From Chloromonas sp. AAM2 (taxonomy: Eukaryota > Chlorophyta > Chlorophyceae > Chlamydomonadales > Chlamydomonadaceae), in NCBI GenBank assembly GCA_004335635.1, contig QAXH01004833.1:502-18139 (forward strand): a DNA stretch of 17,638 nucleotides. Reading direction: 5' to 3'. The notes under the pieces are model-generated. The model saw only the letters and a list, made by a program, of their open reading frames with translations. It did no database searches and was not told the origin of the DNA. Position numbers and translations under genes: made by a program. The number at the start of each line of letters is the position of its first letter. The stretch's first letter is position 1. Of the stretch, positions 1,374 to 16,000 are shown piece by piece.

Positions 1374-4300
1374 CTATGCCTGAGGCTCACACTGGATGGC
1401 AATCACGGTCCTTTCCGATATGCATGTGGAGCGGCGAACGGTGATGGACGGGCAGTTCGTGATCGCAGTGTGGAAAGCTGCTGGCTCGTCCACAGCCAGG
1501 CGGTCTAGGAAAGTTCTCTGCACACAAGCACGACGCATAGATGCAAATACTAGCACAGAGCGGCAATCTGAGGTCGTTAGCTTGGCTACCACAGCACACA
1601 GAGTGCGGTACATTCAGTTTGGGGCGCTGGCAGTGCAACCGTTATCTTGTGCGCTGGTGTTCCCACATGTCTCATGTGTTATGCATATCCCAACCATATC
1701 AATCTCTGTACACTCTGCGTGTGCTCACTCACCACTGCCTTATGGTAGCGGGCTAGCATGTCATCACGCACGGTTTGCAGCTGCGAGCTAATGGCTGCCG
1801 CATTGGTTGTGGCATGCAGCACCTTGGACACCATAAGCTTGGCCAGCTCAATGGTATCAACAGCCCGGAGGTCAGCCCTGCACGGCAGCAGATGCCACCA
1901 ATTGACTTTGCCAAACCGATGCAGTGCAGTAGTTGTAGGCAATGCACATGCACCCCCAGCCACATGACCTGGTTCTGCTCCCACGCATGCATGTTCATGT
2001 GAATGAGTGATCCCCAGGTGACCAAGAAAATTTGCGAAGATTGTGCACCTGCATCTGTCCAAGGTTACCCACAGCAGCACATGACCTTATTCGATACGCA
2101 TTGATATGTATCAGAGAGCTACGTAGCAGGGTATGCCTTGCCAAAGTCCTGCAACAAGTTCAAGACAGCTTCCGTCAGTTGGCATGTGGCTGACCCTGCA
2201 GCTGCAAATGTGTTCAGCTTGCATGAGCACCAATGTTCTGGCAGGCCAGAATTGTCCCATCCTAAACATATGCCCAGTGCACTCACTTTGGGCCCCACCT
2301 GTCAGGCTTGATCATGTACTCGTCCTGTCCAATGCTGTTCATGAAGTCAGCGAACTTGGGCAGACTGGCCATGTACACAGTTGGGCGCAGCGCAGCCGCT
2401 GACAGCACACCGCTGTGCAGGCGGCAGTTGACAGTTACAGCAGCTCGCTCGTACAATTCCATGACACCGCTGTAGCTGGCGTGCTGCGAGGCACAAGGGC
2501 AGAGCACGTGGTTAGAATGCATGGGGATGCCACAGGAAGGAGAAAACTTTCAACAGCACAGGAAGTGGTACTCCGAACAATGAAATGGGCACATGGTTAG
2601 AACGGATGGGGACAGTGCATGGGAGGGCGCAGGGGAGCTTGAGGGTGCAAGGGCAGAGCACGTGGTGTGAATGCTCTGAAGTGGCAAACCACGCAGGATT
2701 GCCACGTATACACATCAGAGTGCTACTACAAATCAATCGGTAGTGCCGTCATAAAAAAAGGCAGTTTGGCAAACTGCTCTCACATGCTGACGCATACAGC
2801 ACACAAACAAACAATGTGAAAAGGGGGTATTGGGCTATTAGGGAATGCATGGCGGAGGCACAAGAACGCAAAACGCTGCTCACACAGCTGCTCCATGAAC
2901 ACAGCAAACGCGGTGCCTCACCCTCCCTCTCTGTTCGCTTACCGCATTGTGCAGAGTGACAGGTGGGTTTCCGGGCCTGATGCGCCTGTTGATCATTGCC
3001 ACGTAGCGCTCGTGCGCAGTCAGGCTCTTGTCGTCGACTGCTTGAAGCACAACCTGCACAAACGAAACGTGAGTCTGCAGGTATTCATCACCATCGTCAT
3101 CATCAGACAGCTTCTTGCTTGCTGGGTAGCCACCGGTGCAGCAGACCAAACAATTCAGGCCCATGTTAGGCGTTGGTGAGCCCATGGCTCCGCAACAAGT
3201 CATTCTTCGTCTCCCTGGCCTCTGCCAATTCAGACTGGGTTGTTTCTGTGTGTTTTTATGTTGGTGTGTGTGCGTGTGTGCCTGAGTTCACCCAAAACAC
3301 CGTATGTATGGTTGTTGACATGGCCTTCAGTCCTCTCCGGATTGAAGGCTATGTCAACAACACCACCAGCACCCACCTGGAAGTGATGTTCGTTGACCAG
3401 CTCCTGAATCATTAGCATCATGATGGCTATCGGGTGACGAGGCACCTGCACACGCATGGACGCATGTTGCAGACACGACTCAAAGTCAGTGCCAAGGCCC
3501 TTTAGCAGCAGAACCAAGGCCAAGCAGCCTTGCTTGCAGTGCCAAGGCCAAGCAGCAGAACCAAGGCCATACCAGCTTCAAGGTTTTGCTGCTTAGACAC
3601 GACAACTAGCTGCTTACAAAGAGCTACAAGCAACGTTAGACATCAATGCAGCTTGCTCAGGTCTGAGCCAAGTGGTGATCGCACGCCGCCACACCTTGAT
3701 CTGTTCCACGTACATGGCTTATGGGACGCTACAGATGTAAAAAGACACACCAGAAGGGGGCACACACACATACACACACACACACACCTTGAGCTGCTCG
3801 ATGTCTGCCTCGTCCACTAGATGTTTGCCGTCCCTGAACAGGTCGGTGCTCTCCAGGGCCGTGCGCAGGGTGGCCACGATCAGCGGCCGCTCGCAGGGCG
3901 ACCCAGGGGCCTCATTCACCTTAGGCTGTATACTGGTCAACTGCACAATCTCAGCGCACAGATACGTGCCACAGTAAGCCACAGGTACGTGCATGCACAC
4001 GAGTTGACAGACACAATAGACACGTGATGCACAAGGACAGCCAAGGCCAAGTTGTGCCAGTAGCACTCTGGTTACAGTGGAGCAGGTTAGCATTGCTTGA
4101 CTGACAGGAAACCCAACTGCAGAAGCTCCACCTGACAACACTTTCTGCTTCGACCGTTTTCAGGCCGTGCCACGTGGGCAGGTCATCCTAGCCTCTCACC
4201 TGGGATGTGCGTGAGTGCACCTGGCGGCTGGCCTCCAGGCACTCGGGCTTGGGTGGCCAGTTGGGCACGGGATGGCCGGGCGGGATCTTTGCCGGCAGCT

Positions 4301-7300
4301 TGTCGGCGAGCACAAGCGACTGAGGGTTGCCCGGGAACAGCGCGTCGGAAAGGAAACCCGAATCACCGATGATTGGAAGAGTGGCCTTGACATGGTTCAT
4401 CAGGAACTCTGCAGGCAAACAGGAGAAGGACAATGAGATCAACGTTATCATTCAGGCCAGGGGCGTGAGTGGCACAGTGCGATGCCAGGCTGATGTACCC
4501 AGAAACCTGTATATATATACATATATATATATATATGTGTATATATATATATGTATATTTTGATTACGTCTGGGGGAATCGCATTCACCGAGCGCGAACG
4601 CAAGCACTAACCAGATACCCTTCTCAGCCGGTCAGCCGGTGAGATATGCGCCAAGCAAGTGTGATGTGCAGATGCTAAGCCGTCCGAGCCCCGTCTTTTC
4701 CATTGCATCCGTTGTCTTCACTCATAGCAGTCGCCTGCTCTACCAGTGCTGCACCCCACCCACATGCCTTTCCCTGTCAAGCCACCCACGCACCCGATGT
4801 GATAGGACCCCTGATGCCCCCGGTCGTGTTGGCATCCATGAGCAATCGCAAGTACATATCCTGCACCGTGGTGTTTGCCCACACACGCTGGTAGCCGCCG
4901 CCAAAGAGCAGCACGGGCTTCTTGGCCTCGAGCATGGGCTTGGCTGCCTGGATGAAGGGAACATCAACTGCAACACCACACACGCAGCCACACTTCAAAC
5001 ACACTAAGCTGTAGTCACACTTGATGTGGACGTTGAATTTGATGTACGTGTTAGAATGCATGCCAGACCAGACACTTGGCACGAATTACTCCAGGGACCA
5101 GCTTGACTTGAGGCAAGCTTGCTGTGTACTGATTCAGGTCCTGGTGCACAAGCGTTACTCACGGAAACGCTGTGGTAGGCACTGTAGCAATTGAGCAGCA
5201 AGGACAAACTGGGCTGTCTACTGATTCAGGTCGCCACTAGCAAAGCTGTACGCCATAGTAAGCTGTACGCTGCAGTGTACCATTCGAAAACCATAGCTCA
5301 AGCACAGCTGAGGGGGAACTGGTGATCCAGGTTGATGGATTAAAGTTGATTGAACCGATCGCACCTGTGGAGCCACCTCCGATGACGGCGAAGTGGCAGC
5401 CGTTGTACTCCTTGTTGACTCCGCAGCCTGCATACTTGCGCGACAGCCCCGCGTCCACCTCAGGCATGACCTGGACGGTAGCGCCCTTGGGAGCCAGGCC
5501 GGCAAGCTGCGCAGTGGGCGCAAACGGGTGCCGACTCAGCCAGGACCAGGACCAAACCCAACGTAAGAATAAGAAACGGAAGGGCATGATGCGCCAATCT
5601 CAAAGACTGATAAAATGGATTTCTGGCTTGAACAATGGGGAAAGTGAGCAGAAGAGCTGACAGCAGCAAAGAAGAAGCCTTGCACAGCAGGTCAGTTGGG
5701 ACAGCGTGCTTGTTGCAGCAGAACATGCATGGCACCAGGTGATACCTAATTTACTGGGTGTGCAAGACTGTCTGCTGTGTTGACCCGTTGGCTGGAGCAG
5801 CAGAGGTCCCCGTCAGCTCAAGCCCCTTCAATTGATTAATCAGGTTAGAATCATTGTTCCGTAACACGAGGACAGACTTGGAGTTGATTAATTCGTGTTG
5901 AGTTGATGACCTCAAGGCACTGCGATGCGTCCTACCGCACGCACTTACCCCCTGGCGCAGCAGCTCATAGAAAATGTCGGCCACAATCTCGTCACCCAGG
6001 TTGTCATGTCCCAGCCAGCCAAGGTAGATGCCATGCAGTACCGCAGGCGATGCATCCATGGCGAGCAGCCGCCTGCCGATGGCAACCTTAGGTGCCTGTA
6101 TTGTCTGTGCCGTGTTGGTCGTTTGCGCTGCCTGAGCTGTGATTGCTGCCTTCACCTTCTGCATCAACTGCTCGTGCTTGCTATGCAGATGGCTCTTGCC
6201 CTTCTTCCATGCCTGTTTGCCTCCTTTACCCTTTGCCTGCATCGTCTGTGCATCGGCCTGGTCCCTGCCCAGCCTGCGCCGGTCCTCTGCATCCGGCTGG
6301 TTCACAGCACTTGTTTGTGTGGTCGCTGGCACTGCCTCCGCTGGCAACAGCATAACAGTGTCCAAGTCAGAGCCTGGCAACCGTGCATCCTCTCCACTAC
6401 CCCACACAGGCCCAGCAGCGATTGTACTAGCCTCAGGCACTCGTCGTGCTTTCACCCCAAGCTCAGCACTGCCGCTGGCTACTCTGGCAACGTCTGGTAA
6501 GGTGGTGCCCGTGGCCACCAGTCCACTCGCTGGCAAAGAGGTGTGTGCCTTCAAAAGATGGTACTCGGCTGTAGGGCCAGTGAAGCTGTTCACGGACCAA
6601 AAGCCCGTTGGCAGCAGGAGCGGCAGAGTGCAGATCATGATACCAACGATAACGGACCGGGCGAGGCTCAAACGGCGGGGCCCAGCGGGCGGCAAGCAGC
6701 TGGAGCAAGCCGGCAGGACGGTTGACTGTGGTAGTGGTTCAATCTCCTTGCTGTCGCGCCCGGCATCGGTGATGTGAACCGTTGCTGCCCCGTCGATCGC
6801 ACCGCCACCGCTGCTGCTGCCACCCATGGACAGTTGCTTCTCCCGGAATGCAGTACCCTGGTCCCGTCTGCCTGGTGACTGCAGCACGTCGTTGCGTGGT
6901 GCCACGAGGGAGTTGAAAAGTGTGGACACGCCTGTGCCTGCCTTGGCGGAGCTGGGGTTGTCCAGGCTGTCGGTACGGGCGGCCTTGGTATCCGAGTGTG
7001 AGTGTGTATGGGTGTGGGCTGGGTGGTGGGCGTGGCTGTACTTGAAATAGAGCCCAGCTGCCACGAAGGTGATGGCAGCTCCCACCATGTTGTGCCAGTG
7101 CCAGTGGGCGCTCTGTAGTACAAGAAGCACAGCATAACCACCTACCAGGGTTGTGTAATCCAGAGTTGTGTCTGCATCCAGCTTGTACACAAAAATGGTA
7201 CAGCATGACTTCAGCTGGACAATCAAAATGAACATGTGGTGCATCTAGACTCGGTTATGTATCCAGCTCGGCTCGCCTTGGATTGCAGACAGTTCCAGTT

Positions 7301-9147
7301 CCAGCCAAACCAGGGTCTCCATACCAGGGTCAAGGGTCCATTGATGCAATCCACCCCCGGCCTGCTGTCATCAGAGCACCTCAAGACCTGTGTGATCGTA
7401 TCCTACATGCGTGCATACCTGTTGCCATCACCATGATAGTGTCAATCTGTGCTTGTACAATTCCATTCCTCCACGCACCTGTGCAAAAAGGGATACTGCC
7501 ACCAGCACAAACACGCGCTTGAGCAGCTCAAGCATACCGTGAGACACGACCGTCAGCTGCGCCAGAACCAGCTGGCTGGCCAGGTTGTAGGCCCAGTTTG
7601 TGCCGCCTAGAATCAACAGCTGCCTGCACAGACAAGGTGCAAAATAGGCAAGGCGGTTGAATGTGTGCTTGCATGACTGCGTCATGATTGGGTGGAGGAT
7701 GATTGGGGAGATTACCCCATGAACGCACGAGCTGGCGCACATGTGGAAATGGGAAAGGGTCAGTAAAACAACGTGTACAGCATTGGTTTCAGGTGGACCA
7801 GCAAGTGTAAAGGGCTAGCTGGCAAGTGGGGCACCTGTTATCCAACAATGAATGAACAGTAATAGACCAGGCTGCCACTGTACACGCAAGGGTGTGTTTA
7901 CAGCATGCAGAGGTGCTTTTCCAACATGCACGCATGCCAACATGCGCCAGGCCTACCTGACAGAGTCGAAGGGCATGCGTGCCAGTTGAACAGCAGCCTG
8001 AGAGCCTGACATGCTGCCTGCTATCAGCAGCACCACCAGCGCTGCACAGCCTGCAGCATTGCCTGTGGTGAGCAGCAAGCCTGCCATGTGGGTGGAAGGG
8101 ATTGTGCTGTATTCTGGCTGCACAATCTGAGAGCTTGTGGTTGGTCGCAATGGGTTGATGACCTTGCCACTGTTGGTGTGCTCTAGATGTCTCTGTGGGG
8201 ATGCCGGGGAGTGGTGCCCCTTGCCGATGCCGAGAGCTGCTAGCAGCCGCCGGGTGATAACGTTCCTGAGCAGCATCAAGGACATGCAGGCCACTGCTGT
8301 TTAACGTGAGAAGCTATTCAGCAGTGCATCAACCAGCTTGCCTGTGCTGAGTGTGAGCTCCTTACAGGCAAAGATGTATACTGCCTCTCCCAGAATATGA
8401 GCAACAAAAAGTATGGAAAGCCAGCATGTGAGGATGATCCAGAAGGGATGTACATAGATTTCCAACAATGGTCTGAGTCTCTTGTGATCACACTCACCGG
8501 AAGGTCATGCAGGAGTTTGCCGCAAGCATCAGCACCACGGTCATCATGCAGAGGGTGGGTTCTTTCCATGATGCCAGCATGGTGCCACCAAGGGATGCAA
8601 AGAGGCATGCCAACGGCTTGCCGTTGGTGATCTGGTCGAGAAGCAAGACGGCCCAAACTGTTGTGAACAAGGGGCCTACACTGCGCGCCACTTGCACCAG
8701 CTGGATGCTGCCATATTCATAAACGACTGTGATGGAGGCTGTGCCCATAACCGTGCTGGCACACATGAGGCACATGTCTAGCGTGTGATGTGTCCAAAGG
8801 AACTTCCATGCTGGGATCAGCTGTGGTGTTGCAGTGCATGAGTGCAGCACCCAAGGAAGGGTGGCAGCAGTGGTGGTGGCGAAGATAGCTACAAGGAGGG
8901 GCATGGTAATGGGGCTGAGCCATGATGTTGCTGTTTCTGTCAACTGAGCAGTGGCGGACGAGAGGCTGGTTTCCACTGTTATAGCTGGGACTGCGGGTCT
9001 GGACGTGGACAGCCAGGCTTTCAAACGCGTGTTATATTCATAACTGAAGTAGTACCAGATGACAACCAAGAAGACGATGAACCCAATGCGCCGAAGCCGC
9101 TGAAAGTTGCCCTGAAGCAGCTCCTGCTGCAAAGATGTGGAGCTCAT
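1374..9147 (-). CDS. Transporter-pyruvyltransferase fusion (TPT/PEP-translocator-like + polysaccharide pyruvyl transferase)
   Basis: Thirteen exons, in transcript order: 9147-8498, 8265-7957, 7623-7479, 7112-5949, 5506-5365, 4967-4794, 4408-4200, 3940-3788, 3445-3377 (or from 3478), 3053-2943, 2483-2287, 1877-1733, 1517-1374. All have GT-AG borders and the phases close into about 1,203 aa. Residues 1-393 resemble the triose-phosphate/PEP translocator family: WYYFSYEYNTRLKAW near 31-45, FRNVITRR near 216-223, and LLKRVFVLVAV with the phosphate-site K355-R356 pair. A His-rich tail and linker (394-515) and a membrane segment (about 521-538) follow. After a low-complexity, Lys/Gln-rich stem comes the pyruvyltransferase domain: GWLGHDNLGDE (733-743), VIGGGST, PVLLFGGG, GGIRGPIT, IGDSGFLS and CRLHSG (RLH about 1063-1065). 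The family transfers pyruvate ketals from PEP to sugars. The start is supported by an in-frame TGA seven codons upstream. Inference: a Golgi protein importing PEP and pyruvylating glycans in the lumen. Separate transporter and transferase transcripts are a less likely alternative. Confidence 0.87.
2484..2674. repeat. Duplicated acceptor-region sequence in intron 10 of the fusion gene
   Basis: CAAGGGCAGAGCACGTGGT occurs at about 2493-2511 and again at about 2648-2666, with diverged flanks; a weaker related stretch (CACATGGTTAGAA) is at about 2589-2601. In the gene's sense the first copy is the pyrimidine-rich tract just before the exon 11 acceptor. Confidence 0.75.
3487..3580. repeat. Approximately 50-nt tandem duplication beside exon 9
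   Basis: Two diverged copies start with CAGTGCCAAGGCC at 3487 and 3537 and share the segments AGCAGCAGAACCAAGGCC. They lie in intron 8 of the fusion gene, immediately upstream (in its sense) of the exon 9 acceptor. Confidence 0.75.
3761..3788. repeat. CA/GT microsatellite at the exon 8 splice donor
   Basis: A nearly pure CA run, broken once by CATA. Read on the minus strand it begins AAG|GTGTGTG, so the donor GT of exon 8 of the fusion gene is the first repeat unit. Confidence 0.85.
4509..4557. repeat. AT-rich dinucleotide repeat in intron 6
   Basis: Alternating TA with few interruptions (ACATA, ATGTG, ATGTA) in intron 6 of the fusion gene. It is close to self-complementary and could extrude as a hairpin. 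Smaller similar runs are at about 59-78 and 10195-10210. Confidence 0.85.
6603..6656 (-). other. Extra (eleventh) membrane segment joining transporter and transferase
   Basis: Residues about 521-538 (SVIVGIMICTLPLLLPTG) are strongly hydrophobic. They are preceded by RRLSLAR and by C504 and C507 in a CSSC motif. Basic residues on the N-terminal side predict a cytosolic N-flank and luminal C-flank (positive-inside rule). Members of this transporter family end in the cytosol after ten helices, so one more helix carries the following domain into the lumen, as in a type II Golgi glycosyltransferase. Confidence 0.75.
6993..7034 (-). other. His-rich segment after the last transporter helix
   Basis: Residues about 395-408 read HAHHPAHTHTHSHS, eight histidines in 14 residues, directly after the tenth predicted helix. 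It should face the cytosol. Such stretches can bind zinc or similar metals. The DNA is a GTG/TGT-rich low-complexity tract, so it may instead be a neutral repeat expansion. Confidence 0.8.
7112..9147 (-). other. Transporter half of the fusion gene (exons 1-3 and start of exon 4)
   Basis: Exons 9147-8498, 8265-7957 and 7623-7479 encode residues 1-368; the last helix follows at the start of exon 4 (HNMVGAAITFVAAGLYF). The first hydrophobic segment is at about 21-35. A hydrophilic loop of about 50 residues (about 230-275) splits the two five-helix halves, as expected for this drug/metabolite transporter family. RNVITRR and LKRVFV look, from memory, closer to plastid PEP/phosphate translocators than to triose-phosphate ones. 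No plastid transit peptide is evident; the protein starts almost directly with helix 1, which fits an endomembrane location. PEP as the substrate is inferred from the fused domain and cannot be read from sequence alone. Confidence 0.82.
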
Positions 9148-9395: not shown

Positions 9396-9690
9396 CTGTG
9401 CTCTGCCAATCTCCTTCTGGATGTGGCGTGTACCTGGTGTCGTCTGGCTGGTCTGCTACTGCGCGGTGAACTTTGACCGGCAAATGCAAGGCCAGACCCC
9501 GGCTGGTGGCGCGCCTGAGTGAGTTACGAACTCAGTCGTGCTTCTGCGATGAATGCTACAGAGCACCAGACCGTGTTTTTGACTGGCTTGCATAACCGCA
9601 AGTTCACGTGAGTTCAACTTCCAGTTCACCTGACTTTACAGATTGGTGGAAAAAGTCATGGTCAATGGTTGACGGATGCATCAGCAAGTA
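9148..9690. other. Spacer between DPH5 stop and fusion-gene start
   Basis: This 543-bp stretch holds the presumed DPH5 3' UTR with its TGTAA motif and the promoter/5' UTR of the fusion gene, including the 83-codon upstream ORF. I see no other gene or RNA in it. Confidence 0.6.
9636..9640 (-). terminator. TGTAA poly(A) signal of DPH5
   Basis: TTACA on the plus strand reads TGTAA in the DPH5 sense, 51 nt after the TAA stop at 9693-9691. TGTAA is the usual chlorophyte polyadenylation motif, so cleavage is expected some 10-20 nt further on, near 9620. Confidence 0.6.
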
Positions 9691-12600
9691 TTAAATGAAG
9701 CCGGTATCATCTTCTTCTTGTTCGAGCGTTGGACGCGATCTAGGCTTGATCAACCCTTGCTGCCGCAATGTGGCGATGCTGTAGCAGCTCAGCATCTGCT
9801 CCTCGATCTCATGCGTTTTGCCAGCTATCACAAGACAGTGGAGTGGAGGGCCGAACTCAACCTCCACCACCTCACTGATTGGCCCAGCTACCATGAGTTG
9901 GTCCTCCGCCTGCAGGAAAACGCACAGGAAACCCCCCGTTCGTGTTACAGGCACCCAAACAGCACAAGCTTTTGAAGCTCTGTCAACGGCTTTGCTATCT
10001 GTGCTTTGGTGTATCTGGGGCTGCTGTTCCTGTTCAGGAGATGCAACTGCAGCGCCCACCTGCAACCTTGCAATTCCAACACAAAGTGTGCTCTTGTCGT
10101 AGGCACCTTCCTTCCTGCGCTCCTCTATTTCCATAAGCTGTTCCAAGGCCTGAGAGCACGGCAGCAAATGCACAGCATGCAACGTCATGATTGATTATAT
10201 ATATGTATTTACACCAGGGATTGATTATTGAGATGATTTTGGTGCCCGAGTTCTGGATAACCACGCCTGCACAGTTTTCTTTCTGGCATTGTCTCGTGGT
10301 GGCACTTACCGTGTTGATGGTCATGAATCTGGGAGGCTCATACACAGTCCTGCCCCGAGCTAGCATGTCAAGGTTGGGCTCTTTGACCTGCAGCTCACCA
10401 ACAACGGGGCATGACCATGGGCAGGATGAATGATCGAGGCAGCATGTGATGATCAGCACTGTGTATGCTGATTGGCGATAGAGGCAGCATATGACTGCCA
10501 CAGCTGTACGGCTATGAAAACAAATGGTGCAATGGTAACTGGGTTAACACATACTGTATGAGCGCAGCTCACCTTGATATCCAAAAGGCACAGAGTGTGA
10601 AGGCCAGCAGCACGATTGTCACGTATGCGATCATAGAATGAGTCAGGTCTCCAGGTGTCCGAGAAGAAAACTATGGAAATGGACTGCAATGAGTGAGTAG
10701 CACGTCAGTCATCAACTGGCCGGGATTCAAATCCCAGCACAAGTCATAGCACAGCGCGCAAGAGCGACAACAAAGGATAGGATGCGGCAGGCCAAGGCAC
10801 GAAGTGGTTGGCCGACCAGCGTGTGATATTCCAATAGTGAGCTGTTTGGTGTGACAGTAGAGTTGTGCCGTCACAGTGACATACATATCGCAACCAGCGC
10901 CCTCTGTGCGTCCTCTTCGTCCGGAGGACGTTGTTTGCTGGAGTTGTTCATGCGTTTTGTGCCTAACGGGGTTTGCGGTCAGGATAACACCCAGAGAGAT
11001 GACCATTAGCAGCACCACCATAGTCGTGCGTAATAATGCCCTTGACATGTAGGTTAGACAGGTTGGGCTCCCTCCCTGCATGTAATCGCCACACCATACC
11101 GTCACCTGCACACCTGTGCCTGCAACATCCAGCTACCTTCAATCCATACCTCATGAGAGGCAAAGTAGGATTATCACGCTCTCCAAGCCTCACCAAGCAA
11201 ATCGGTGCCTTACCTCACCAAAGCGATAGAGCTGCAAGCCACAGGCGCCCACCGCGTTCATCACACTCGCATTGTGCACAACTTTCACTGGAATGCCCTT
11301 CTCTCGCGCACGCAACTGCAAATCCGTGTGTGTGGTGGCTCTGCATGGAGAAGACATGGTAGTATGCATCAAAACACAAGTTAAGGAACCAGCAGCAGCA
11401 GTCCCAGCACACCCAAGTGCACTGTTGCTTTTGGCTGCAGGCTACATGCACTTGGTGATGAGTGCTGAACACGGCCATGAGCATGCAGGCCGTTCCGACA
11501 GCCAGCAGGAGCCAGCAAGATCTACGTCAAACCTTCTCTAGCCATCTGCGTGAGTCAACACTTGTGCAATGCAGTCAGGGATGGAGGCAACACGCAAACA
11601 ACCCAAGGTGCCATGCCCGATGCCTTGCGAGTGGAAAACGGATGCAGCTCTGGCAGTGAAGCGGCAACCTTTCAGCACACAGGTTTCGATTGCACACGTC
11701 TCACCCGAAAGGGTCTCCCACGACAAGGAAGGCCACATCCTCCTTGTCAGCGTTTTCAAGGATGACTTCCGCGGCCTGCAGCCATGCGGGTAGGCAGTAC
11801 AAGTCACATCCTATCTTTCAAACAAGGGATGCAACACACTGCCGCCTAAGGGCCTATGACATATCCATTGGGTAGACCAAACGAATGCATTCACTGGCTG
11901 GCTGACCGCCTGCATCAGGTGTGGGTGCTCCGGCTAACTTGGTCTCTTGGGTTGGCTGCCTGAACGATCATTTTTTTATTTTTATTTTGGTGTTATGCAT
12001 GATCTGTTCAAAGCCAGCCTGAACAAGACAGCTGCCCGCAACAATGCTCGCTCACGCACTGAAAGCATCATGTGTAGGGGCGCGTCTACTCACAGACTCA
12101 ACCATCTCCCGATCAGCCACTACCACTTCTTTGCCGTACAGGTCCTCCTACAGCCAGGACAACGTACAGTCTCAACATGACTCTCAATTGTGCTGAAGGT
12201 ACCTGCAATGCAGTCAACTGCAAGGGGCGGAGACTTGAGCTGTGTAATAATAACTCAAGCTGGTGCAATCAGGTTGTCGAGTGGTGCTGAAAGCTTGGCG
12301 TCGTGAAGGAACGTTCTGATAACGCTCACCAATCTCTTCTTGTCACACAAGAGGATGGATGTGTAGGCCTCTAAATAGATACGGCTACACTGCCTCACTG
12401 CCTCCAAGCCCCTGCATCAACACTCAGCCGATATGGGTTGTGTTCGGGCCTTGTCATTGTATGCTGGTTGTGGTTATGGCAGCTGGTCAAGCAGCAGGAA
12501 GACTGATATGGCGACTGCCAAACTGGTGCTGGCAGCGGCTGCTGATGCCTGAGCATGACATGGTAATGGCATGGCAAGAGGCCAGGGTCAAATAGCTGGC

Positions 12601-13027: not shown

Positions 13028-16000
13028 ATGCAGAACAGCCACATCGCACATCGTGTGGGTTTGCTGCTGCTTGCCGGCCTTTTACCCGGCATAATTTCAA
13101 ACGTCTGGGCCGAGGAGAAGGGGGCAAGCGTCTCGCTGCGGGCAAAATGGCGTGGCTCGCCCTTGTTTCATGAAGCAGCGGAACTTGTGGTAAGCTTTGC
13201 GCTTGGATGCGTGGACAGGCAATTGGGGGGCCTTGTAGGTCTTGGATGTAGACATGGTGTCCCCTCCCCGTAACCGCCTTTACATTGCGCTACCACAGGC
13301 TGAGGATGATCATGACAAGTTCTGGAAGTTTCTCGAGGCTTCATTCACCCAGGAACAGCCCTCTGATGTTGGCATGTGCTGGGCTCATATCCTGGGCTTG
13401 ACAACTTCGATGTTAGACAAAAGCGTCGGCAAGGTGGGTCAGCGTCAATGAACAGTGCACGGAGGTTGACAAGCATGCCAGAGATTCATGCCAACTCTCT
13501 AGGCCAGTTGTCAGCAGAGTGTCACATGTAACCGTCCTGTGCATGGATTTGCGCAACAGAGCAGGATTTGTGCTCCTAGAACCTCTGCACCACGGAGGAT
13601 CGTGTCTTGCGCCCCTCACATGCAGCATACTCCTTGCAGGCCTTATTGTGCAACACTCTAACGCCCAGTATGGCTAGTCAAGGCATGCCAGGCATATCCA
13701 ATCTGCATGTAGAAGTAGTGCTTTGCAAATGTACGTGAATAAGCCCATTGTATTTGTTGCACACCAAGTTGTTTGCTGCTGTTGGCACATATCGCTCTGT
13801 ACTGTGTGTGCAAATGGACATGCATGCATGCATGTGCGTTTTGAGAACACTACCTTTCCATACATGCGGGTCTTCGTTTCTTACTCCAAGTCACATGCCA
13901 TGCAGCTCGTCAGGGTTGCCATCTAAGTGCTGTGCACATGCACTTCAGGCCGCCCCTTTGATCCTGGCTAGCCGGAAGTACTCGGCCAAGCTAGCCATGT
14001 ATCAGCAAATGTTTGAAGAGACACATCCAGACGTGCAGGTATGGACTACGTCATGCACAAGGCAGGTTGAGTTGCAGGGTGAAGACATATAGCATGCACA
14101 AGGCCACTGCTGACATGCCTGACAATGCATGTGCGCCAGCATGAGGCAAAGGGACTGCCTTCAGCCGTGGACGCGTAGCAGGACAGCTGTAATCAAATGT
14201 GTGTCAAGTCTTTTCTATTGCCTTGCCCAGGGCGGGCCAGGCAGGTGCTCATACCGGTCTCATGCGTGGCTCCATAGCAATCACAGGATGTGGTCGAGAT
14301 TGCTGTTGGTGCTTGGAGGAGCATTGCCTCCAATTTTGCTTGAAAGCGCATGAGTCAACAGCATAGGATCTGTAGCGGGATCACACACATATAACCTGGA
14401 CTGACTGTGTTACAAAGTGCCTTTGCAATGTGCTACATCTGCATTGTGCTAACATGCTGTTGACGGGTGAATGCGGACCATAGCCACAAGCTGCTGCCTT
14501 GTCTCTCAGACTTGTTGCGTTGTAGACGTGATGGGGTCTGTGGCTACTTCAATCGAGGAGCTTCCAAAGGCCATTGAGAAAGCCTCCTCTGGCAAGCATG
14601 AGGAGGAGGACTCGCAGCTCTTTCCCTTTGACCATGTGTTCCGGGGCAAGGTCAGCCGGCCAGGTGAGGCACGTGGCTGAATTTCCTGTCATAAACAGCG
14701 CCAGACATAAAGAGCTGATCACGTTCGTCCTCAATAAAATGTGGGAATGCATGCAAACATGCAAGGCAGCCCGCCAATAGGTTACTGTTGGCGCACTGCA
14801 TTGTTGGTAAGCGCTTCTGATGTGAAATGGCGCACACGTGCTCACAGATGCCATCCGTGCCATCCTATACGCACCGGTGGGCGCTGCATGCGCCAAGCCG
14901 CTGCACTTTGCGCTTAAGGTGGCCGCCAACGCCGGGCATGTGGCGTACGCCTTCCGACCCGTGCTGCCTGCCAGCTGTGAGGTGAGGGGCTGTCCACAGC
15001 TGGTGCGAATGCATGTGCGTTGCCACCATTCATGCGCACCACGGCTGGTAGTATGCTCGCTGCATGCACTTGGAATGGGCTGGGGTTCCACTGCATGTGA
15101 CACATATGTGATGCTCACATTTCAGAGGCTGTGGTGTCCACATGTGGTACAGATGCTTAGGTACATAAGGTGCGGATGGCCCTGTAGTATTACCAGTGGC
15201 TAGAGACTGAAGCCGCTGGTTCGAGATCCAAACCAACACCCATCCATTGCAAGATATGGCTTTCATTACAGATGAATGTGTGGGTTTGACCATTCATCCG
15301 TATCACACATGGATGGCTGTTGTGTTAGACATGGCCTGTAACATGCTCACTGCAAGGACTGTAACGTCAACAGCCATGCAGCCATGCAGCCATGCATTTT
15401 GACAGCCATGCTTGTAACCATGCAACAGCCTTGGTTGTGACATTGGCAACCTTGGTTGTGGCGTTGGCAACTTTGGTTGTGACAGCACCCTGACAGTTCT
15501 GCTTTCCAAGCACAGCTGTCATCGCTTTTGCCGTGTTATGCGTGGTTTGCAGCACCTGAGGGCGGATGCATCGCGTCCTAACAGTACCCTGGCACTTCTG
15601 CCTCACAAGCACGACCTTAGTTCTGTCTCACACTTTTGTCATAACGCGTGGTCTCGCAGGTTTCCGAGGGTGGCTGCACGCAGTCCGGTGCACATGAGCC
15701 ACTGGTACTGCCCGGTTGGGGTGTGGAGGCGGTGCTGAAGAATACAGAGTACAGCGCAATGGATGAGAAGGACAAGAAGGCAGAGGCAGCGGCAAAGAGC
15801 AAGGCAGCAGGCAAGGTCAGTGGGGACATGGGAGCAACGAAAAGAGCAGCAAAAGCTCTTGGGCAAGATAGGCGTTGAGCTACAGGCGAATTGTGCTGCA
15901 GGTGGGGCATGAATGCTGAGGTACAGTTGGCATGCACTTGAGCGAAAGGCAGGGTCATGCTGCAGAACAAACCTGGGTGCCAGGCAGTGTTCAGTGTGAA

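Follow-up and report, generated by a model that had tools for sequence, protein, structure and literature searches.

Gene structure at the locus

The window, i.e. the whole stretch of 17,638 nucleotides from Chloromonas sp. AAM2 that was analysed, accounts for the greater part of a contig of 18,139 bases, which belongs to a genome of 74.4 Mb and 2,324 contigs. On its minus strand a gene was rebuilt from 9147 to 1374, with 13 exons coding for 1,198 residues and a stop (Table 1). All 12 introns are of the GT...AG type and measure 215-459 bases, and all exon junctions are in phase, which bears out an earlier note on this DNA that had thirteen exons joining in phase. According to the same note, the last transporter helix (HNMVGAAITFVAAGLYF) and the first pyruvyl transferase motif GWLGHDNLGDE share one open exon of 388 codons. 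Both indeed lie in exon 4 in one frame, and the coordinates and codon count proved exact. Exon 4 comprises 1,164 bases inside a 497-codon stop-to-stop frame, while the other two frames hold many stops.

Table 1. Features of the probable fusion gene, in positions of the window.
Feature	Position	Strand	Content
Exon 1	8498..9147	-	Start codon and helices 1-6 of the transporter (residues 1-217, with the last codon split); exon length equal in C1448
Exon 2	7957..8265	-	Loop and helix 7
Exon 3	7479..7623	-	Helices 8-9; codons of Lys355-Arg356 at 7520-7515
Exon 4	5949..7112	-	388 codons spanning helix 10, the linker, the eleventh helix, the join and the first transferase motif
Eleventh hydrophobic helix	6588..6674	-	Residues 515-543; also in the transporter-only paralog C1448
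Join zone	6294..6518	-	Residues 567-641; neither paralog has a clear counterpart; low coding score
Transferase N-terminal motif GWLGHDNLGDE	5988..6020	-	Residues 733-743
Exon 5	5365..5506	-	Transferase, GGGST
Exon 6	4794..4967	-	Transferase, GIRGPIT
Exon 7	4200..4408	-	Transferase
Exon 8	3788..3925	-	Transferase
Exon 9	3377..3445	-	Transferase
Exon 10	2943..3053	-	Transferase
Exon 11	2287..2483	-	Transferase; Arg-Leu-His codons at 2423-2415
Exon 12	1733..1877	-	Transferase
Exon 13	1374..1517	-	Transferase C-terminus and stop

Two introns contain repeats: an AT microsatellite in intron 6 (4500-4560) and, by eye, an imperfect inverted repeat in intron 9 (3310-3365; GTTGTTGACATAGCCTTCAATCC ... 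GGACTGAAGGCCATGTCAACAAC). Elsewhere in the window, five joined exon pieces on the plus strand (13030-14990) match Thioredoxin_12 (PF18400, 1.2e-31) and form the start of a glycoprotein-glucosyltransferase-like gene, which we take to be a UDP-glucose:glycoprotein glucosyltransferase (UGGT)-like gene. On the minus strand, exon pieces at 9690-10540 resemble diphthine synthase (DPH5) by eye; two open frames there gave no Pfam match at E 0.01. A 56-base stretch at 18-73 recurs at C1448:6258-6313 (87.5%) and is perhaps a dispersed repeat. The genome also yielded 30 exon-level chlorophyll a/b-binding matches, one of which was compared with the PDB and was closest to green-type LHC proteins, several of the best entries being from Chlamydomonas; this points to a green alga as the likely source.

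Paralogs in the same genome and order of events

Two genes of the same genome each correspond to one half of the window gene. The first, C1448 (C1448:7610-10379), is a transporter-only gene coding for 567 residues, with four exons at the same places as window exons 1-4. It ends at a TGA a few residues past the eleventh helix, at a position that aligns with residue ~563 of the protein encoded in the window. The second, C791 (C791:12970-19965), is a stand-alone transferase of 10 exons and 573 residues, and the phases of its nine junctions are those of the window gene from exon 4/5 to the end, two of them adjoining alignment gaps. A third transferase-like match, C2208, was rejected (E 0.99, not significant). 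The Pfam pyruvyl transferase model PF04230 found no match in this genome, probably because the exons are short.

The earlier note had reasoned that relatives always encoding the two parts separately would speak against a fusion. This is half the case: the only two near relatives found, both in the same genome, are separate genes, but the start of C791 looks like the first transporter helix and C1448 has the extra eleventh helix of the window gene. The start of C791, MKQFSPQLVVVVFLVAVCSCEHNTRFKA, and the transporter start, ...FIVFLVVIWYYFSYEYNTRLKAW, match in frame at the DNA level. The match scores 36 with window exon 1 and 43 with the C1448 exon, against maxima of 31 and 32, respectively, in 1000 dinucleotide shuffles each. 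Among 196 genomic decoys, compared with window exon 1 only, the top score was 32, so that none reached the 36 of C791. The likeness spans 38 aligned bases with the window and ~66 with C1448, and it is weaker at the protein level (43 vs a maximum of 39 for the window, 44 vs 41 for C1448, 2000 shuffles each). The in-frame match suggests a fused ancestor that was later split. On the simplest reading, C791 would derive from a fused gene whose middle part has been lost; the stretch is short and could also be a captured leader. The fused form is probably older than the C791 split (dS 1.46 between the transferases), and C1448 probably arose later (transporter-core dS 0.28).

The DNA that follows the C1448 stop was compared with the missing half. 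In its readable 1.9 kb, no transferase remnant was found by blastn and the best tblastn match had an E-value of 0.48. Compared with the join zone, the same stretch was shuffle-like under strict alignment, and under permissive alignment its first 301 bases scored 18, a value that 5 of 500 shuffles also attained. Such a faint trace, if real, would suit a truncated fused gene. Further along the contig, every fetched base of G000:C1448:12311-34000 is N.

In a different order of events, two genes that were separate ancestrally would have fused recently, with intergenic DNA becoming the join and the likeness between C791 and exon 1 being due to chance or to the independent capture of a signal sequence. 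This order would explain why the C1448 stop roughly marks the limit of clear similarity to that gene, why the coding signal is weaker in the join zone and why each half also exists alone. Nevertheless, it has to set aside an in-frame match that exceeds all shuffles and decoys, as well as the faint trace past the C1448 stop. This history is possible, if doubtful; it is compatible with the mechanism proposed below and concerns only when the halves met. The boldest reading, advanced tentatively and a little short of probable, is that a transferase fused to the carrier of its own donor is the old state in this algal lineage. Copies would then have split, C1448 retaining the transporter alone and C791 the enzyme with helix 1 as a leader, and the fused form would be a one-chain Golgi machine for import and transfer that pyruvylates surface glycans.

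Family likeness and motif residues of the two halves

The whole protein passes the TPT model PF03151 with 38.1 bits (cut-off 30), and the paralog C1448 scores 43.3 bits. The tpt model TIGR00817 gives 29 bits against a curated cut-off of 317.9. The earlier description of the transporter as PEP-translocator-like thus holds for the TPT family, whereas the PEP subfamily is a guess. In a hydropathy scan, eight distinct hydrophobic stretches stood out, including residues 515-543; with helices 5, 8 and 10 placed by eye, the usual ten transporter helices and helix 11 are obtained. The TM9 motif VSHGMLELLKR, which contains Lys355-Arg356, resembles those of the three other TPT-family genes examined in the genome (VTHSIGNCVKR, VSHGVCNVVKR and VTFSVGNTMKR). 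In GsGPT, Lys362 and Arg363 of TM9 coordinate phosphate, according to the published account (PMC9010763). When the GsGPT phosphate-binding residues K362, R363 and K204 were aligned by eye with the window protein, the TM9 Lys-Arg pair was kept and the TM4 Lys204 position was occupied by Arg155.

Compared with C1448, dN/dS is 0.149 in the transporter core (391 codons), 0.362 in the linker (392-514), 0.383 in helix 11 and 0.250 in the tail (17 codons only); dS in the linker is 0.59, twice that of the core. The transporter half looks to be under constraint (dN/dS 0.15-0.38). Since C1448 keeps the extra tail and the eleventh helix (dN/dS 0.36 for linker and helix), neither would be there only to carry an enzyme.

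On the transferase side, the window protein scores 20.2 bits (whole protein) and 23.8 bits (domain) with PS_pyruv_trans (PF04230), whose cut-off is 25.3. C791, 60% identical over the transferase domain, reaches 35.9 bits and so exceeds the cut-off. The CsaB model TIGR03609 gives 29.3 bits against a curated cut-off of 213.1. What stands of the claimed transporter-pyruvyl transferase fusion is that a PF03151 hit and a pyruvyl-transferase-like domain share one frame, but the PF04230 score of the window protein itself stays below the cut-off. In the literature, an Arg, an Arg-x-His and a Lys are assigned to PEP binding in Pvg1p and CsaB, and Tyr14 and Phe16 are given as acceptor residues of CsaB. 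Likely counterparts of the PEP-binding residues, placed by motif and by eye, are Arg856, Arg1058-Leu1059-His1060 and Lys1080, all of which are kept in C791. When a profile of the two transferases was compared with two bacterial proteins, an Alicyclobacillus pyruvyl transferase scored 49.5 bits over an N-terminal block and a second block around RLH, and Escherichia coli WcaK scored 8.3 bits, with the match confined to the RLH region; E-values in this comparison are for these two targets alone. The Alicyclobacillus member aligns with the N-terminal motif, GGGS, RGxxT, a Lys-Leu-His with Lys at Arg1058 and the following Lys. WcaK keeps GGS, RLH and Lys but has no RG at the Arg856 motif. With a dN/dS of 0.207 relative to C791, the transferase half looks constrained as well. 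The protein has two NxS/T sites in all, at 835 and 850, and both fall within the transferase domain.

The protein could be fused as described and still serve another cargo, such as a different phosphorylated compound or a nucleotide sugar, with a transferase relative that catalyzes a different reaction. The TIGR00817 and TIGR03609 scores, far under the curated cut-offs, would agree with this, as would the positions of CsaB Tyr14 and Phe16, which are presumably Leu and His here. On the other hand, the Arg-Leu-His and the following Lys are kept, by eye, as in PEP binding by Pvg1p and CsaB, and so is the TM9 Lys-Arg pair. Another cargo is regarded as rather unlikely, and delivery of PEP to the attached enzyme is our best guess at the mechanism.

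The join within exon 4

The 153 codons that join the halves (563-715) are open in the given frame, a result matched by only 6 of 2000 dinucleotide shuffles. With a codon score of 0.159 in this frame, they lie above all of 225 intron windows (maximum -0.004); this is a rough control, because these windows overlap and the same introns set the background. Smaller windows of 50 codons gave 0.043 for residues 567-616 and 0.013 for residues 592-641. As the corresponding null of 405 intron windows has its 95% point at 0.023, its 99% point at 0.072 and its maximum at 0.117, residues 567-641 are marginally coding-like at best. Clear similarity to C1448 stops where these residues begin. Ahead of the join, the linker (392-562) looks coding in the window gene and in C1448 alike (dN/dS 0.36), and the reading frames on both flanks of the join zone agree. 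The DNA that holds the join (window 6560-5949) matches one other place in the genome, ~100 bases in the transferase motif region of C791. TGTAA, the poly-A signal used by green algae, is absent from the minus strand between 7902 and 4076; with only 13 occurrences on this strand across 17.6 kb, its absence from exon 4 means little.

The weak score of residues 567-641, together with the end of C1448 similarity at the same place, leaves room for two transcripts from overlapping or adjacent genes. Within exon 4 the transporter transcript would end or be spliced away, and a type II transferase encoded separately would start there from its own promoter. Both paralogs are separate genes, the C1448 stop coincides with the start of the join zone, a donor-like GTGTGG lies at codon 604 of the marginal stretch, and a start at Met464, which precedes helix 11, would yield a type II protein anchored by that helix. 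However, helix 10 runs into the transferase without an in-frame stop and the frames flanking the join zone agree. Moreover, helix 11 is kept in the transporter-only C1448 and is hence not a private anchor of the transferase, and the C791 start looks transporter-derived. Two genes appear quite unlikely on these grounds. A false assembly of two loci within exon 4 is conceivable in a draft genome of this many contigs with the window in an 18 kb contig, but it is highly improbable, since it would need one frame kept over 153 codons, the genome yielded no repeat of the join DNA on which an assembler could have gone astray, and neither half is identical to its paralog. Overall, the fusion of both halves in one gene is probably real.

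Proposed mechanism and significance

The locus has one open in-phase frame that resembles both families; both of its halves look constrained, and an extra helix lies between them. From this gene a single membrane protein would be made, with transporter and pyruvyl transferase in one chain. The transporter would most likely carry phosphoenolpyruvate (PEP) from the cytosol to the lumen. There, the attached enzyme would use PEP to pyruvylate galactose or some other sugar in a glycan of the cell surface, and phosphate would leave the lumen via the same carrier. In ten-helix carriers of this superfamily both ends are cytosolic; an eleventh helix would thus put the transferase in the lumen, where PEP would arrive. 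Topology, compartment, PEP as the cargo and the acceptor sugar are inferred. Taken as a whole, import of PEP and transfer of pyruvate by one protein is on balance probable.

If this holds, both components of a pyruvylation pathway in green algae, transporter and enzyme, would be identified at once. Pyruvylated galactans of green algae are known chemically, as stated in PMC6801904, and no algal pyruvyl transferase gene was found among the matches listed in a search of open-licence PubMed Central. The gene would also offer a natural test of the coupling between donor transport and transfer in the Golgi, and an orphan transporter would be linked to PEP through its fused partner.

Comparison with known systems

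Relatives were searched for beyond this genome. In the protein database, no match was found for the fused protein (7994 candidates, E<=0.001), for the transferase alone (7999 candidates, E<=0.001) or for the exon 4 alignment of the window, C1448 and C791 (7996 candidates, E<=1); candidates had to share 5-letter words, so that remote algal relatives can be missed. Viral contigs, scanned with C791 alone and with the two-row transferase alignment, contained no relative, nor did the prokaryote genomes scanned. A plasmid search returned a single bacterial transferase, a remote one (24% over 27% of the query). Sequence searches of the PDB gave no meaningful match, only chance-like ones such as chemokines and an antitoxin. 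A single protein uniting transporter and pyruvyl transferase was absent among the matches listed from open-licence PubMed Central. The fusion is rated as a new architecture made of two families already known.

Each half can be set beside its family. Like TPT/PPT carriers (PF03151, TIGR00817), the window protein passes the Pfam model, has the TM9 Lys-Arg pair and accommodates ten helices; it differs from them by its extra tail, its eleventh helix, the attached enzyme and an Arg in place of the TM4 Lys. The transferase shares with bacterial CsaB/WcaK-type enzymes (PF04230, TIGR03609) the motifs described above, i.e. the LGW..NLGDE start, GGGS, RGxxT, (R/K)LH and following Lys of the Alicyclobacillus member, and GGS, RLH and Lys of WcaK. 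In two records the bacterial enzymes have coding sequences of their own. The domain encoded in the window is remotely related to them, contains insertions and, taken alone, lies below the PF04230 cut-off.

The closest functional parallel comes from fission yeast, in which the Golgi-membrane pyruvyl transferase Pvg1p, read as a type II protein, is fed by the PEP transporters Pet1p and Pet2p, as described in PMC4872226 and PMC6801904. In these accounts the yeast transporters and enzyme are separate proteins, whereas the window gene has both in one frame. Golgi nucleotide-sugar transporters and N-acetylglucosaminyl-transferases, according to PMC6453868, form non-covalent assemblies in which a donor transporter is held beside the enzyme that uses the donor. 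Such reported assemblies make a covalent version plausible: contact between separate proteins there would correspond to a single chain here.
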